From NCBI RefSeq assembly GCF_000403645.1, contig NC_021313.1, positions 3,181,014-3,245,013 of the forward strand: a stretch of DNA of 64,000 bases, read 5' to 3'. How positions within the stretch are numbered: position 1 is the first letter of the stretch; every line of letters starts with the position of its first letter. This document shows positions 5,820-13,625 of this stretch, in pieces. The stretch comes from Salinarchaeum sp. Harcht-Bsk1. Lineage in GTDB: Archaea > Halobacteriota > Halobacteria > Halobacteriales > Salinarchaeaceae. The position numbers were made by a program, and so were the translations under genes. The notes beneath the pieces were generated by a model, which searched no databases, was not told the DNA's origin, and was given only the letters and a program-made list of their open reading frames with translations.

Positions 5820-6245
5820 ACCCGTTGCTGGGGCTCCCGAACACTTCACCCCTTGCAGTGTCAGTGAAGGCAACGCCGGGACCGAGCGGACGTGCAGCGC
5901 CCGCAGTTTCAGTCACCGGCGTCTCGTCGGCCCGCCACGTCGGACCGGCACTTTTCTTGTCAACACGCGATGCGCGACGCGCTTCGGGTAATGGATATGA
6001 TCTCCAATGATCCTCGACTTTCGATACTGAAATCACCCGGATTGCGGTGGTTACTATCTGGGATTTGACTATACGCGAGGTCCGGTGGTGGCGTTTTCTC
6101 ATCCGACCGATCGTCCGATAACTACCGAACACTAGCCCTTCACGGGCGAGGTGGGGTTGTCAGCAAAACGGGTAATGCAAGACAAACCTCGGGAAAATGA
6201 TCAGTAACAGAACAATGATGGGGATGGGGGTGAAACTCGTTGGCA
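5820..6245. other. 426-base gap without a convincing gene
   Basis: This stretch is less G+C-rich than its neighbours, and no frame has haloarchaeal codon bias or a recognisable domain. It holds the upstream region of the phosphoesterase gene (minus) and the leader of the membrane-protein gene at 6246 (plus). A short hairpin GCCC-TTCAC-GGGC lies near 6135-6147. I see no tRNA-like or box C/D-like structure. Confidence 0.4.
6226..6233 (+). promoter_or_regulatory. Shine-Dalgarno-like site GGGGGTGA
   Basis: GGGGGTGA lies 12 bases before the ATG at 6246 and resembles the archaeal ribosome-binding consensus GGAGGTGA. It favours the ATG over the in-frame TTG at 6240, and implies that this gene, unlike most in the window, is translated from a leadered mRNA. 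Confidence 0.45.
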
Positions 6246-7157
6246 ATGACAGACGACTCACCTGACAACGTCCTCTTTGAGTGGTACGAGCGATTCATCG
6301 GCGAACCGGAGGCGGAGACGGACGTCTACCTCGGCTTTGGTCTCTTCTTCACTGCGATCGGCCTGGCGCTGCTCGCACTCGTCCTCTTCGTCGTGGGCGT
6401 TGCGGCGTACGGCATTCGTGAAGACGGCTACTTCGCGGTCGCTCGCGTGGCCTACGCCAGCGGGATGCTCTCGGTTCCCCTCGCGATGTTCTCCATCGTC
6501 GTCTTGCTGCCAGTGAAACAGCGCGCGACGATGGCCGCCGGGGCTGGCGTCGCCGTGACGGTCGCGGCCGTCGTCGGCTTCGCTGTCGTCTATCCCGACA
6601 ACTGGTTCGACTACGGGGGAACGCAGACGCTCTACATCGTCAGCGGCTACGCGGTGGGCCTGATGGTCGTGACGGCGGCGACCGGTGCAGCGCTCGTCGC
6701 CCATCACCTCCAGCGCACCAAGGCACCTGCGCCGTCCGAGATCAAAGCCCAGGAAGAAGAGGAAGACGAAGAGACGTACACCACCGAAGAGATCGAGCGT
6801 GACATCGAAGAGGCAATGGCCGACGTCGAGATGACGTGGGGCGGCGTCGAGAAGTCCGAGAACCGACGCCTCAAGCTAAACACTGACTTCGCCGACGCAG
6901 AACTGCAGGCTGGCGGCCTCGGCCTCGAGGGGAACAAGACGGTCGAGTCCGGCGGCGTCGACGACCAGGTGCAGGGACTCCGGAACCTCAAGGGCGGTGA
7001 GACGAAGACCGCTACCTCCGAATCTACGGTCGACAACCAGACAGCTGCCCTCAACGAGCTGAAGCAGCAGAAGAAGGAAGATCAGGTCCCGACGAACGCA
7101 CCGACCGCAAGTAGCAGTTTCTTAGGCCGTTTGCTGGACCGACTTGGGCTAAGTTAA
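6246..7157 (+). CDS. Haloarchaeal membrane protein paired with the actin homolog
   Basis: A 303-residue integral membrane protein. Four hydrophobic helices occupy roughly residues 27-150. A long cytoplasmic-type tail follows: an acidic stretch ([22 protein letters not shown]), then a Gly/Asn/Gln-rich region and a short C-terminal helix ([13 protein letters not shown]). I do not recognise an enzymatic motif. It lies directly upstream of the actin gene, 100 bases away and on the same strand, but a hairpin and a separate promoter lie between them. The pairing suggests a membrane anchor or regulator of the filament; that is inference. Start ATG 6246 rather than TTG 6240. Confidence 0.72.
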
Positions 7158-7233: not shown

Positions 7234-7257
7234 CCGCCGGGTACGGTGTGTCACGAT

Positions 7258-8295
7258 ATGGCGAAAGGCCTAGACGTCGGCACCATGAACATCCTGTCGG
7301 CACAGCAGGATGGTAACGACACGGTATTCGTTCAGCAGCGCAACTCCTTCGTGGAGATCGACTACTCGGACATGGCCGAGCAGATGCTCTCGCGAAGCGA
7401 AGTGCTCCACATCCGCAAGGACGACAAGGTGTACGTCGTCGGCGACGACGCCCTGAACTTCGCGAACATCTTCAACCGAGAGACGCGCCGCCCGATGCAG
7501 GCGGGCATCCTCTCCTCGGACGAGAAGTCCGCGATTCCGATGATGAAGCTCATCATCGAGCAGGTCATCGGCGAACCCGACCGCCCCGGCGAGAAACTGT
7601 ACTTCTCGACACCGGCCGACCCGATCGACACGGACCTCTCGACGCTGTATCACCAGAAGACGATCGAGTCGTTCCTCGGCGACATGGGGTACGACGCCGA
7701 GCCGATCAACGAGGGGATGTCCGTCATCTACAGCGAACTCGCGGACAATTCCTTCACCGGTCTAGGGATCAGCTTCGGGGCCGGCATGACGAACGTCTGC
7801 CTGTCCTACTACGCAGTGCCCGTCATGAAGTTCTCCGTCGCCCGTGGTGGCGACTGGATCGACGAGCAGGCCGCACAGGCGACCGGTACGCCCGTCGACA
7901 AGGTCACTTCCATCAAGGAGGAGGACTTCGAACTCGACTTCGAGACGGACGTCGGCGGCGTCGAAGGAGCGCTCTCGATCTACTACGAGAACCTCCTCGA
8001 CTACGTGATCGACCTCATCGTGGAGGAAGTCGACGAGGAGGACGTCGAGGAAGGCCTCGACGTGCCCGTTGTCGTCACCGGCGGCACCTCGAGCCCCGAC
8101 GGCTTCGAGGCCCTGTTCCGTGACCACCTCGAGGACGCGAACATTCCGTTCTCGATCAGCGGCGTCTCCCACGCCGACGAGCCGCTGTACTCCGTCGCAC
8201 GGGGTGCACTCGTCGCAGCCCGCTCCGACGAGCAGGAAACCGAAGGCAGTGCGGACGCAGAGGCAGAGGGCGAAGCCGCGGCTGCAGACGAGTAA
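7258..8295 (+). CDS. volA: Actin homolog of the volactin/salactin family
   Basis: A 345-residue actin/Hsp70-fold ATPase. Phosphate-1 motif LDVGTMN is at 5-11, phosphate-2 motif [11 protein letters not shown] lies mid-protein, and the adenosine motif [12 protein letters not shown] is near residue 275. The family is haloarchaea-specific; published members form dynamic filaments and affect cell shape (volactin in Haloferax, salactin in Halobacterium). The C-terminus ends in an acidic Glu/Ala tail. ATG 7258 gives [11 protein letters not shown], the family's usual start, and matches the TATA spacing. Which of the two named proteins is the true ortholog cannot be decided here. Confidence 0.85.
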
Positions 8296-9811: not shown

Positions 9812-11737
9812 TCAGATCTGTCGATAGGTCTCCCGCTGGGCGATCTGCACGCGCGTTCCGTCTGCAATCGCGAAGATTGTCACGAGGTCGTTGGACTGGC
9901 CGGTGCTGAACGTGATGGGCCCGACCTGCGTGTCGTTGCCGATCGCTGGAATCGGGGACCGACCGACGGTCGAGTTGTTCTGGTAGACGCGGAGTTCGAA
10001 GCGATCGCGCGCCGGGACGAGGCCGACCGTGTGGTTCTCGATCACCGGCTGTGCGCGTTGCTCCGGACTCGAGTACGCGCGGATCGATTCGTTGCCGTGG
10101 CTGAGGTCGATCGCGTACGCAGTGTCGTTCCCGGTGACGGTCCAGCCGATCCGGTCTGCGTGGACCGTCTCCCGCCAGCCCACACCCCCGACGGTGACCG
10201 ATCCGTCTCCTTCACTGGCGAGGTACTGCTTGGAGAGCGCCGTCGTCCAGATGTGGCGCTCCTCGTTGACGACGATGACGCCACTCGTGGGGACGGCGGT
10301 TTCGTTCGCGACGGCCGGTAGCTCGATCGCGGGGATCATCTGATTTCGTACGTCCTCGGCGTAGGTGATCGAGTACCCGTCGACCTCGATCGACTGGTCG
10401 CTGGGAACGGGGTCGTCACCGACGGTCACGAGATTCGGGATCGTTGCCGGAATCGCGACGAGGACCAATACGACGACGAGTACGGTGAACGTCGACTGGA
10501 AGCCGGTCGGTGCTGCGTCGAACGTGACCGGTGCGAGCACGGCGACCGCAGGGACTGCGAGGACCAGTGCGAACAAACCGACGACCACCAGCACGACGAA
10601 GGATTTGCCCGCGACGATCGAGTACCCGCCGGTAGCTGTGACCGCCAGGGCGAGGAGGGCGAGGAACCCGATAGCGACCTGGCTCGGCGTCGGTGACCTC
10701 GGCAGCCTCGCAAGTGTGGCCGTAACGGGCCGATCGCTAGACGTTACGGCGAGTGCCACGAGGACGGCGAGTCCGACGACGAGACTGACGCCGAGGCCTC
10801 GATAGAGGACGTACACGCCGTTCCCCTCGAACCAGTAGACCGCCCAGAGTCCCTCGCTCATCCCGTAGACGAGCATCGCGAGGAAGACGCGGTTCACGTT
10901 CGGGGCGACGCTTCGGTGGTGCATCAGCGCGAGACCGAGAACGACGCCGAGGAGGATCCCGAGCGCGTGGCCCTGCACAGCGATCGTCGCCCACCAGGGA
11001 ACGCTCGGCGCGCTGCCGGAGATTTCGGCGTACACCACCGGATACTGGATGGCGTAGTATGTCGTCGAGAGCACGCCGGAGAGCAGGATCGCGACCAGCG
11101 TCGCGATCGGGTACCGGACGAGGGCGAAGGCGGCGAACGCGAACACGACGCCCGAGAAGCCGATCACGGGCCCGACCGCGAAGAGGGCCGTGAGGAGACC
11201 GAGTGCGAGGACCGCGCCTGGGAAGCAAACGAAGGCACGTACCCAGGGGATCGTGGTCCAGGTCTGCAGTCGTTCGCGGAGCCGTGGCGTGCCGTCAAGT
11301 CGATCAGTAGCCTGGTCCGTCGATCGATCGCTCGTCGTGGATCGGCTACCGCCCGGGTAGTGACCCCAGGCGTACTCCGCGATCGGTGCGAGCGCGATCG
11401 TTCCCATCAGATTGCCGACGAGGTGTCCCGACGAACTGTGGGCGAACCCCGCGGTGAGGAGTCCGACTGGGTACAGGTAGGACCAGGCACGGAAGGGGAT
11501 CACCGTCGGATCGTGCCAGTGTTCGATACCGCCCTGCACGAAGAGGTAGACGGCGAGGACGAACGCGATAGAGACGAGCGTCCCCCAGGGGACGCCGTAC
11601 CAGAACCGATCGGTGAGCCGCTTCCGCCACCGATCTCCGTCGCCGAGATACCACGCGATCGCGAGTGCGACGGCGTAGGTGGCGACGATGAGTACGGCGT
11701 ACGGCGACGGGAGCATCAGTGGATCCGTAGCACTCAC
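9812..11737 (-). CDS. Rhomboid-family intramembrane serine protease with C-terminal ectodomain (copy 1)
   Basis: A 641-residue membrane protein. The rhomboid core spans about residues 45-275: HSSSGHLVGN carries the conserved His100, His105 and Asn109, GFSG carries the nucleophile Ser195, and VQGHALG carries the catalytic His257. A hydrophilic loop (about 130-160) interrupts the core. Five more hydrophobic segments follow (about 283-450), then a soluble domain of about 190 residues, probably outside the cell, with GGVGWRETV. The ectodomain and architecture are shared with the next gene, so the two arose by tandem duplication. Substrate unknown. Confidence 0.85.
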   Translation of the reverse strand: MSATDPLMLPSPYAVLIVATYAVALAIAWYLGDGDRWRKRLTDRFWYGVPWGTLVSIAFVLAVYLFVQGGIEHWHDPTVIPFRAWSYLYPVGLLTAGFAHSSSGHLVGNLMGTIALAPIAEYAWGHYPGGSRSTTSDRSTDQATDRLDGTPRLRERLQTWTTIPWVRAFVCFPGAVLALGLLTALFAVGPVIGFSGVVFAFAAFALVRYPIATLVAILLSGVLSTTYYAIQYPVVYAEISGSAPSVPWWATIAVQGHALGILLGVVLGLALMHHRSVAPNVNRVFLAMLVYGMSEGLWAVYWFEGNGVYVLYRGLGVSLVVGLAVLVALAVTSSDRPVTATLARLPRSPTPSQVAIGFLALLALAVTATGGYSIVAGKSFVVLVVVGLFALVLAVPAVAVLAPVTFDAAPTGFQSTFTVLVVVLVLVAIPATIPNLVTVGDDPVPSDQSIEVDGYSITYAEDVRNQMIPAIELPAVANETAVPTSGVIVVNEERHIWTTALSKQYLASEGDGSVTVGGVGWRETVHADRIGWTVTGNDTAYAIDLSHGNESIRAYSSPEQRAQPVIENHTVGLVPARDRFELRVYQNNSTVGRSPIPAIGNDTQVGPITFSTGQSNDLVTIFAIADGTRVQIAQRETYRQI

Positions 11738-11789
11738 TTCGTATAGGTCGTGTGGTCTCTGGCACTCGCAGCGTAGCCTCGATCGATCG

Positions 11790-11817
11790 CTCTCGATCGA
11801 CCGCTCTCGATCGACCG
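11790..11817. repeat. Two copies of a 14-base direct repeat
   Basis: CTCTCGATCGACCG occurs twice head to tail upstream of rhomboid copy 1 (11790-11803 and 11804-11817). It lies in the 154-base gap between the paralogs and may be simple slippage. Confidence 0.5.
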
Positions 11818-11840
11818 CAGTAGCACGTACCTACGCGCTC

Positions 11841-11891
11841 GACGCTACGTCTTCACGTTTGACGCCAGGTCTTCACTTACGACGCTCCGTC
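11841..11891. repeat. About 2.5 copies of a 20-base imperfect tandem repeat
   Basis: The units at 11841-11860 and 11861-11880 both follow the pattern GACGC-x5-TCTTCAC, and a third partial unit starts at 11881 and runs to the stop codon of rhomboid copy 2. The repeats lie between the two rhomboid genes and may mark the duplication joint or ordinary slippage. Confidence 0.45.
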
Positions 11892-13625
11892 CTACGCGTA
11901 CGTCTCTTCGGTCGCGACGAGCGCCCGGCTATCGTCGGTCTCCATGTAGACGTGCTGGACGCCGTCCTCCGTTTCAGAGGTGATCGTGATCCCGCCGAGC
12001 GTGGTGGATCCGTTCCCGTCGGGGATCGCGACGGTTTCGGCCGTGCCGTCGGCGTTCGAGACGCGCAGTTCGAAGGCGTCTCGGGTGGGAACGACGGTGA
12101 CTGCGTGGCCGTCGATTCGCGCACCGGCAGTCAGGGGATCGGAGGTGAACGACCGAACGGTCTCGTCGTCGTGGTGAAGGTCCACGACGAACGCCGTCTC
12201 GTTCCCCGCGACGTTCCACCCGGTGCGCTGGGCCCGAACGGTCTCCCGCCAACCGGGCCCACCGACGACGACCGTCTCGTTCCCCGAGTGCGCGAGGGCG
12301 TCCGGTCGAACGACCCTCGTCCAGATCTCCCGATCCTCGCTAATGAGCACCACGCCGGAGACTTCGTTCGCGAAGATCTCTTCCGTCCCTTCGCCGAGGT
12401 CGACGCCGGGGACGTGCCCGCTGGTGGTGTTGTTGGCGTACGCGACCGTGTAGTCCTGGATCTCGATCGCCTGGGACTGCTCGATGCCAGCGTCGTCTAC
12501 GGCGACGATCCCGAACAGGACGGTGGGCAAGGCGAGGAGGACGGTTAGCAGGACCAGCGCACCGATCGCTCCCTTCCGCTTCGTGAGCCACGAGGAGGAC
12601 CGCGTGCTCGTCGCCGCGACGGTGACGAGTCCAGTGACGACAAGAAGGGCAACGACGCCTGCCCCGCGATAGAGGTAGAAGACGTCGTCGCCGCCCGGCC
12701 ACACGACGAGCCAGAGCGACATCGCGAGGCCGATACCGACGAGGCCGAAGAACACGCGCTGCGTCGAGGGAATCCGGTTTCGCTTCGTCAACAGTGCGAG
12801 TGCGGCGAAGGCGCCCAGGAGGAAGCCCAGCGCGTGGGCCTGGAACCCGATCCCGGCCCAGGACGGCGGCGACGGCGGCCCGGACGAGACGGTGCCCCGG
12901 ACGATCGGATTCGCGAGCGCGTTCCAGACGACGCCCAGTGCGCTCGCAGCGACCACGCCGACCACAGTCCTGAGGGGGTAGTAGACGACTGCGAATCCGA
13001 TGATGCCGTAGACTGCACCGGAAAATCCGAGACCCGGGCCGAGCGAGTAGACGGAGGTCAGGAGTGCAATCGCGAACAGCGCCCCAGGGAAGAGCACCAG
13101 TGCTCGGACGAGCGGTCGTTCGACGAAGGATCTGGCAGCGCTCCCGGTTGGTTGATCCGGGAGCAGTTCGTCGTCGGTATCCCAGGGCTCGTCGTCACCC
13201 CCGTCGGTTTCGGCGTCTGCCCCGCCAGACTGTGGGTCGCCATCGGAATCGTACGTGGATCGGGGATAGTGACTCCAGGCGTACTCGGCGATTGGCGCGA
13301 GGGCCAGCGTGCCAGTCATGTTCCCGATCAGGTGCGCCGGAGAGCCGTGAGAGAACCCGGCGGTGACGAGCCCCAGTGGGTAGAAGTACGACCAGGAGAC
13401 GAACGCGTAGACCACCGGATCGCTCCAGTGGGTGAGGCCGCTCTGGGCGAAGAGGTAGAACGCGACGACGGACCCGACGACGAGCACGGTTCCCCACGGG
13501 ACGCCGAGGACGAACCTGTCCTCGAGTCTGGCCCGCCACCGGCCACGTCCTTCGTAGAACCAGATGCCCGCGGTGACCACCAGTAACGCGAGTGCGACGA
13601 CGATCTGCGTCGGGGAGGGTTCCAT
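11892..13625 (-). CDS. Rhomboid-family intramembrane serine protease with C-terminal ectodomain (copy 2)
   Basis: A 577-residue paralog of the neighbouring gene. The core shows [10 protein letters not shown] (His93, His98, Asn102), GFSG with nucleophile Ser202, and FQAHALG with catalytic His264. An acidic loop at about 123-165 ([10 protein letters not shown]..., Asp-rich) lies inside the core, as in copy 1. Further membrane segments follow, then the ectodomain with [16 protein letters not shown]. Copy 2 lies upstream of copy 1 on the same strand, 154 bases apart. Both catalytic residues are present in both copies, so both are probably active. Confidence 0.85.

Follow-up and report, generated by a model that had tools for sequence, protein, structure and literature searches.

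Why does Salinarchaeum sp. Harcht-Bsk1 carry two rhomboid-like genes side by side, and what is the domain that both proteins carry at their C-terminus? The genes, coding for the proteins here called P0001 and P0002, lie in a 64,000 nt stretch of contig NC_021313.1 (the window, by which we mean the whole stretch analysed). An original prediction, made from the letters of the window, took them as a special local pair. We find instead that the C-terminal domain, hereafter the ectodomain, belongs to the universal haloarchaeal Rho1 family, and that the second gene codes for a paralogue of long standing, scattered over a part of the haloarchaea. The reading we favour, which we hold as probable with clear reservations, is that P0001 is the vertically inherited Rho1 and P0002 an old paralogue of a clade termed B, that the outer ectodomain recruits or gates surface substrates, and that the B copy is an accessory. 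The gene family is a known one, and its ectodomain is apparently undescribed.

The rhomboid core of P0001 and P0002

The two adjacent genes are intact, on the same strand and separated by 154 bp, and both proteins have the Ser/His dyad, the hydrophilic loop and the extra membrane helices that had been predicted for them (Table 1). Overall, P0001 and P0002 are 41% identical as aligned by MAFFT; by BLASTP their rhomboid parts share 43% and their ectodomains 36% identity. The number of extra helices is unequal, as the linker before the ectodomain has three predicted helices in P0001 and one in P0002. Among named relatives Salinarchaeum laminariae is the closest (L033, 62% in the best segment). 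It shares the tandem, at the corresponding position, and the window copies adjoin the L033 copies in the 117-row tree described below. In other genomes family genes carry the annotation rhomboid family intramembrane serine protease.

The family set comprised 118 members, loci L001-L032 being left out as they overlap other loci. The column of the catalytic His264 of P0002 is kept in 118 of 118 and that of Ser202 in 117 of 118, the sole exception being a frame-broken locus; the dyad is kept in all 116 frame-intact members. The Ser belongs to a GxSx motif on TM4, and the His, preceded by Gly in P0001 and by Ala in P0002, is on TM6. H93, H98 and N102, the motif H-x4-H-x3-N at the head of transmembrane helix 2 (TM2), are each found in 116 of the 118, and the reading frame is broken in both remaining loci (L083 and L086). 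The motif is present in P0001 as well as in P0002, and it occurs also in TM2 of Escherichia coli GlpG.

P0002, the only one of the pair to be modelled, gave a predicted local distance difference test score (pLDDT) of 91.4 and a predicted template modelling score (pTM) of 0.89 with a 108-row alignment. The model has the six-helix rhomboid fold, and it matched E. coli GlpG with a VIA Z of 11.8 and a root-mean-square deviation of 3.8 over 159 residues, the next unrelated row having a Z of 5.0. The six-helix core and the Ser-His dyad are shared by GlpG and the Rho1-type family; unlike that family, GlpG is not known to have extra C-terminal helices or an ectodomain. Family, dyad and GlpG-like core are established by computation.

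Table 1. Features of the two rhomboid genes, in positions of the window.
Feature	Position	Strand	Remarks
P0001, Rho1-type rhomboid protease, core (syntenic) copy	9812..11737	minus	641 aa, GTG start
P0001 C-terminal ectodomain, residues 443-641	9815..10411	minus	199 residues; 7 N-X-S/T sequons, two overlapping
P0001 motif RIGWTVTGNDTA, residues 529-540	10118..10153	minus	pairwise and family alignment
P0001 motif GGVGWRETV, residues 517-525	10163..10189	minus	pairwise and family alignment
P0001 catalytic His257 (QGHALG)	10967..10969	minus	column kept in 118/118
P0001 catalytic Ser195 (GFSG)	11153..11155	minus	column kept in 117/118
P0002, Rho1-type rhomboid protease, paralogue of clade B	11892..13625	minus	577 aa
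P0002 C-terminal ectodomain, residues 378-577	11895..12494	minus	200 residues; all-beta in predicted model; 5 sequons, two overlapping
P0002 motif of RxGWxVxGNxTA type, residues 467-478	12192..12227	minus	pairwise and family alignment
P0002 motif GGPGWRETV, residues 455-463	12237..12263	minus	pairwise and family alignment
P0002 catalytic His264 (QAHALG)	12834..12836	minus	family alignment
P0002 catalytic Ser202 (GFSG)	13020..13022	minus	family alignment
P0002 hydrophilic TM2-TM3 loop, predicted cytoplasmic	13116..13271	minus	length 11-77 aa across family; pLDDT <60 over much of loop
P0002 H93-H98-N102 motif (H-x4-H-x3-N), start of TM2	13320..13349	minus	each position kept in 116/118

P0001 also has an alternative in-frame ATG start at 11716, which aligns with the start of P0002. 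Two short tandem repeats, at 11778-11818 and 11840-11885, with units of 14 and 20 bp, take up much of the gap between the two genes.

A Rho1-type gene in every haloarchaeal genome sampled

With P0002 as query a relative was found in 292 of 292 genomes of the class, and the family profile matched all 284 Halobacteria genomes, from 76 of 76 genera. Of 294 genomes drawn from the whole phylum, 55 had a match, of which 53 are from the same order (the window genome included) and two from another family (G300 and G309). The Rho1-like frames of these two (L166 and L167; 567 and 543 aa) have a strongly diverged ectodomain, with profile E-values of 2.6e-11 and 7.7e-8, which may point to an origin before the Halobacteria or to a transfer.

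P0001 occupies the conserved slot hisF-rpoL-rho1-methyltransferase and P0002, being a paralogue, does not. Of 89 core loci, 73 have the methyltransferase as the neighbouring gene, on the opposite strand, and 34 were found to have rpoL. The arrangement rpoL-rho1-methyltransferase is kept in three deep-branching members of the order (G217, G285 and G021).

The rhomboids of Haloferax volcanii are, according to the accessible text of two papers, only Rho1 (HVO_1474) and the AN1-type Rho2 (PMC11985538, PMC4343526). Since no sampled Halobacteria genome lacks the present family, which is not of the AN1 type, Rho1 would be its H. volcanii member. Rho1, or RhoI, belongs to MEROPS S54. It is described in the portion of PMC4343526 available as having nine transmembrane segments (TMS), and a 1,651 bp amplicon is given for HVO_1474 in that of PMC11985538, from which we judge a length of about 549 aa. 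Its UniProt accession is D4GYA9 according to PMC9263693. Both Rho1 and the window proteins are rhomboids of haloarchaea that exceed six TMS. They differ in setting: only two rhomboids are reported for H. volcanii, and Salinarchaeum adds a B copy beside Rho1. Rho2 (RhoII, HVO_0727), a rhomboid of the same organisms, differs by having six TMS, an N-terminal zinc finger and, as far as the available text of both papers goes, no ectodomain, with an amplicon of 891 bp (about 296 aa; PMC11985538, PMC4343526). The window genome has three further rhomboid genes: L171 (328 aa frame, PF01428 and PF01694) is of the AN1-zinc-finger type like Rho2, and L172 and L173 are short (204 and 199 aa frames).

The ectodomain, its fold and its placement

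The shared soluble C-terminal domain, put at about 190 residues in the original prediction, measures 199 and 200 residues. The two motifs named with it, GGxGWRETV and RxGWxVxGNxTA, are in both proteins and are not due to chance, as 117 of the 118 members have G455, 109 have W459, 115 have R467 and 113 have W470 (P0002 numbering). Modelled alone the ectodomain gave a pLDDT of 93.1 and a pTM of 0.87, and it is predicted as all strands except two short helices.

The domain had been called unrecognised, and no known family was matched in our searches either. Pfam gave no consistent match to 103 ectodomains; the best single E-value was 0.0021, for one member, and the most frequent touch was PF21139 (10 members, best E 0.036). 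No PDB sequence matched below E 0.38 and no PDB fold at a Foldseek E of 0.001 or less (best E 0.0059, template modelling score 0.19), the best VIA Z being 5.0 over 38 residues. The Foldseek viral library returned rows only at E of at least 0.006, which is noise level, and NCBIfam, searched with full-length P0001, P0002 and four other members, gave no ectodomain match above noise. It should be noted that the ectodomain alignment leaves out L036 (cut), L071, L083, both L033 copies and near-copies, and that near-copies of at least 85% identity were left out of sets A2 and A3, the first A2 sequence being without its initial Met. For a predicted structure the absence of PDB matches would not prove a new fold. 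Kinship with propeller blades, lectins or fatty-acid-binding proteins was rejected, as the rows mostly span only about 40-50 residues.

The ectodomain was also looked for without the rhomboid core, in 36 genomes already known to carry the family and in no other phyla. None of the 53 strong matches was free-standing, all lying in open frames of 545-704 aa; two weak partial matches (E 0.0038 and 0.033) cover 66 and 49 of 197 positions, in frames of 380 and 406 aa. In the accessible text of the literature searched on HVO_1474 and haloarchaeal rhomboids no description of the ectodomain was found, the founding paper (Parente 2014) being outside that search, and the mention of an ectodomain in the available part of PMC9263693 concerns another protease.

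On which side of the membrane the domain lies was judged from sequons and helix numbers. The 118 ectodomains contain 537 N-X-S/T sequons where shuffled sequences give 127 (z 46.9), and for the TM2-TM3 loop the numbers are 2 observed and 15 shuffled (z -3.8); these z values are not probabilities, as related sequences are counted separately, and it is the asymmetry that counts. In 116 members (L083 and L086 left out) 533 ectodomain sequons compare with 111 occurrences of the reversed motif, 59 of Q-X-S/T and 300 of D-X-S/T. The linker (340-392) has one predicted helix in 89 of the 118 members, three in 28 and two in none, which fits the requirement of a fixed topology; with a lower helix threshold, applied to 45 long linkers, one row gives two helices and one row four. 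Taken together, the sequon asymmetry and the odd numbers of linker helices assign the loop to the cytoplasm and the ectodomain to the cell exterior, and the surface location that had been proposed is hence supported.

The layout would then be an N-terminal helix, a six-helix core with a cytoplasmic TM2-TM3 loop, and three (P0002) or five (P0001) further helices, this odd number bringing the C-terminal ectodomain to the outside. Rhomboid active sites, such as that of GlpG, open on the outer side. Judged from its sequons, the ectodomain is probably N-glycosylated.

A domain with the same extracellular placement and conservation might instead be a sensor, or a module for docking to the surface layer (S-layer), which binds a surface glycoprotein, glycan or ion and by doing so switches the protease or sets its position. 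A cluster of conserved Trp, Arg and Gly residues (R432, W435, W459, R467 and W470) could be a binding site or a packing interface, and the data do not separate a ligand site from the fold core. No ligand-binding domain was matched, and the weak single-blade structural matches that include lectins (Z 5.0, 38 residues) are no better than background. We consider such a role possible but rather unlikely.

Origin and maintenance of the second copy

In a tree of 117 rows, from which L086 (367 aa, broken frame) was left out, 31 rows including P0002 form clade B, with a Shimodaira-Hasegawa-like approximate likelihood ratio test (SH-aLRT) support of 99. P0002 nests inside the clade and not at its base, hence the pair is not recent. 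Requiring two matches with a best E-value under 1e-150, we find two family copies in 37 of 284 genomes; a further 15 genomes have a pair of matches whose best E is about 1e-95 to 1e-105, and in four of these 15 the pair was seen to be one gene in two pieces. Among two-copy genomes outside Salinarchaeum there are 36 with listed positions, and in these the copies are at least about 98 kb apart (G045) or on separate contigs, which in draft genomes do not show the distance between copies. P0002 is an old, patchy paralogue, and a copy of its type adjoins Rho1 only in the two Salinarchaeum genomes, which is as far as the conservation of the pair goes.

The adjacency of the genes, on the same strand, 154 bp apart and kept in both Salinarchaeum genomes, would agree with P0001 and P0002 forming a heteromeric protease or an obligate pair. 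Against an obligate complex speaks how far apart the copies lie in other genomes, and the core copy is alone in most genomes; we regard this explanation as quite improbable.

The surroundings of clade B members are not those of Rho1. None of rpoL, the methyltransferase and volactin was found beside the 29 clade B loci outside Salinarchaeum, and among 23 B loci no neighbour is shared by more than two other loci. One B copy is carried on a 342 kb plasmid of Halorussus salilacus, and the B members of three families (f4, f7 and f10) group with a support of 100; to judge from these sequences, a group spanning three families suggests lateral transfer. The second copy is not always of clade B. In G049 it (L129) has a higher score against P0001 than against P0002; its frame length and scores equal those of L065, which is outside clade B.

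It might also be that P0002 arose as a tandem duplicate of Rho1 in the Salinarchaeum lineage and that clade B spread from there. The tandem exists only in this lineage, and in a rooted quick tree, which leaves out 45 loci chosen as near-copies or long branches, B stands next to the Salinarchaeum core copies with an SH-aLRT of 99. A tree with all core copies in one clade fits 10.7 log-likelihood units better, however, and is not rejected by the approximately unbiased (AU) test (p-AU 0.64), and the position of P0002 inside B also speaks against such an origin. With the rooted tree and this alternative both standing, B may either have been born in this tandem or have come to join it; we find a birth in Salinarchaeum doubtful. 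The region-wise identities gave no clear sign of P0001 being a mosaic.

Both window copies are under purifying selection, the ratio of nonsynonymous to synonymous substitution rates (dN/dS, NG86) between the two Salinarchaeum genomes being about 0.31 for P0001 and 0.27 for P0002. One of them could in principle be a pseudoprotease or a decaying duplicate, and a recent, pseudogenising copy had been named as a possible weakness of the original prediction. Broken frames are found only elsewhere in the family (L083 and L086), none being in the window, where both open reading frames are intact with complete catalytic motifs. Together with the low dN/dS this excludes gross decay, and we hold it to be very improbable that either copy is defunct. 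The frame-broken loci are L083, which is of clade B and comes from halophilic archaeon J07HX64, and L086, the Rho1 gene of Halolamina pelagica, which is split over several frames; each may be an assembly error or a pseudogene.

Proposed function of the Rho1-type proteases

The favoured reading, with P0001 as the inherited Rho1 and P0002 as its accessory, takes the computed ectodomain prediction, sequon signal, distribution, synteny and purifying selection as given, and we infer from there. By analogy with rhomboids generally, surface membrane proteins would enter the core sideways and be cut near the outer membrane face. The ectodomain, hung from the last helix on that face, may recruit, filter or gate such substrates under the S-layer. 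In this way Rho1 would control the amounts of those surface proteins on which cell shape, adhesion and motility depend, and the B copy would have a different or narrower substrate set.

In H. volcanii the deletion of rho1 is reported to give giant, filamentous and irregular cells with increased motility and biofilm formation and decreased adhesion, rho2 fails to rescue the shape, and the substrates of Rho1 are stated to be unknown (all from the accessible text of PMC11985538). These phenotypes could reflect a loss of surface-protein processing.

Several points weigh against this reading. The scores of P0001 and P0002 for PF01694, at 17.0 and 22.0 bits, are both below the gathering cut-off of 22.6, which was reached by all ten other family members scanned (22.6-31.4 bits); in a profile search of the genome with neighbouring matches joined, the two window frames scored 27.9 and 32.8. 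Loop 1, which has WR in GlpG, has WS in the Rho1-type family (W78 in 109 and S79 in 114 of 118). This WR motif in loop L1 is given in the available part of a review as present in about 80% of rhomboids and as no strict requirement (PMC12615303). The helix count comes from hydropathy and a model, and the P0002 model has about 10 membrane helices against the nine TMS published for RhoI, according to the part of PMC4343526 available. The placement of the ectodomain on the active-site face follows from the topology and not from model coordinates, and the family was equated with H. volcanii Rho1 by exclusion and not by sequence alignment. Proteolytic activity is predicted from family and fold, and substrates, recruiting or gating, glycosylation and the division of labour between the copies are likewise predictions.

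If the favoured reading holds, a conserved, outward and probably glycosylated domain on the active-site side suggests a route by which Rho1 finds its surface substrates, and in genomes that naturally have two copies, two ectodomains can be compared side by side. In a 2025 review H. volcanii Rho1 is left out of account for its departure from the topologies expected of rhomboids, in the text available to us (PMC12615303), and the anatomy of the Rho1-type family offers a reason for this deviation. Further, we speculate that an undescribed extracellular all-beta fold, joined to a rhomboid before the Halobacteria diverged, acts as a glycosylated, substrate-recruiting lid under the S-layer, with clade B members as mobile extras through which some haloarchaea gain a second specificity in cutting surface proteins; as a whole we would give this idea a low probability.

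Neighbouring genes

An actin homologue of the volactin family (PF25216, E 2.8e-137) lies on the plus strand at window positions 7246-8295, about 1.5 kb from P0001. Of the 89 core loci, 29, which come from several families of organisms, have such a gene downstream of rho1. Both volactin and Rho1 have cell-shape phenotypes in H. volcanii, as reported in the available text of PMC10869688 and PMC11985538, and their genes (HVO_2015 and HVO_1474) are far apart there by gene number. A link between volactin and Rho1 is only suggestive. The window genome has a second volactin-family match (260.8 bits; G000:C1:2814466-2815341, minus strand), in an open frame of 893 codons. Directly before the volactin-family gene of the window stands a DUF7139 (PF23600) membrane protein gene, at 6240-7157 on the plus strand, and the two occur together in many core loci.

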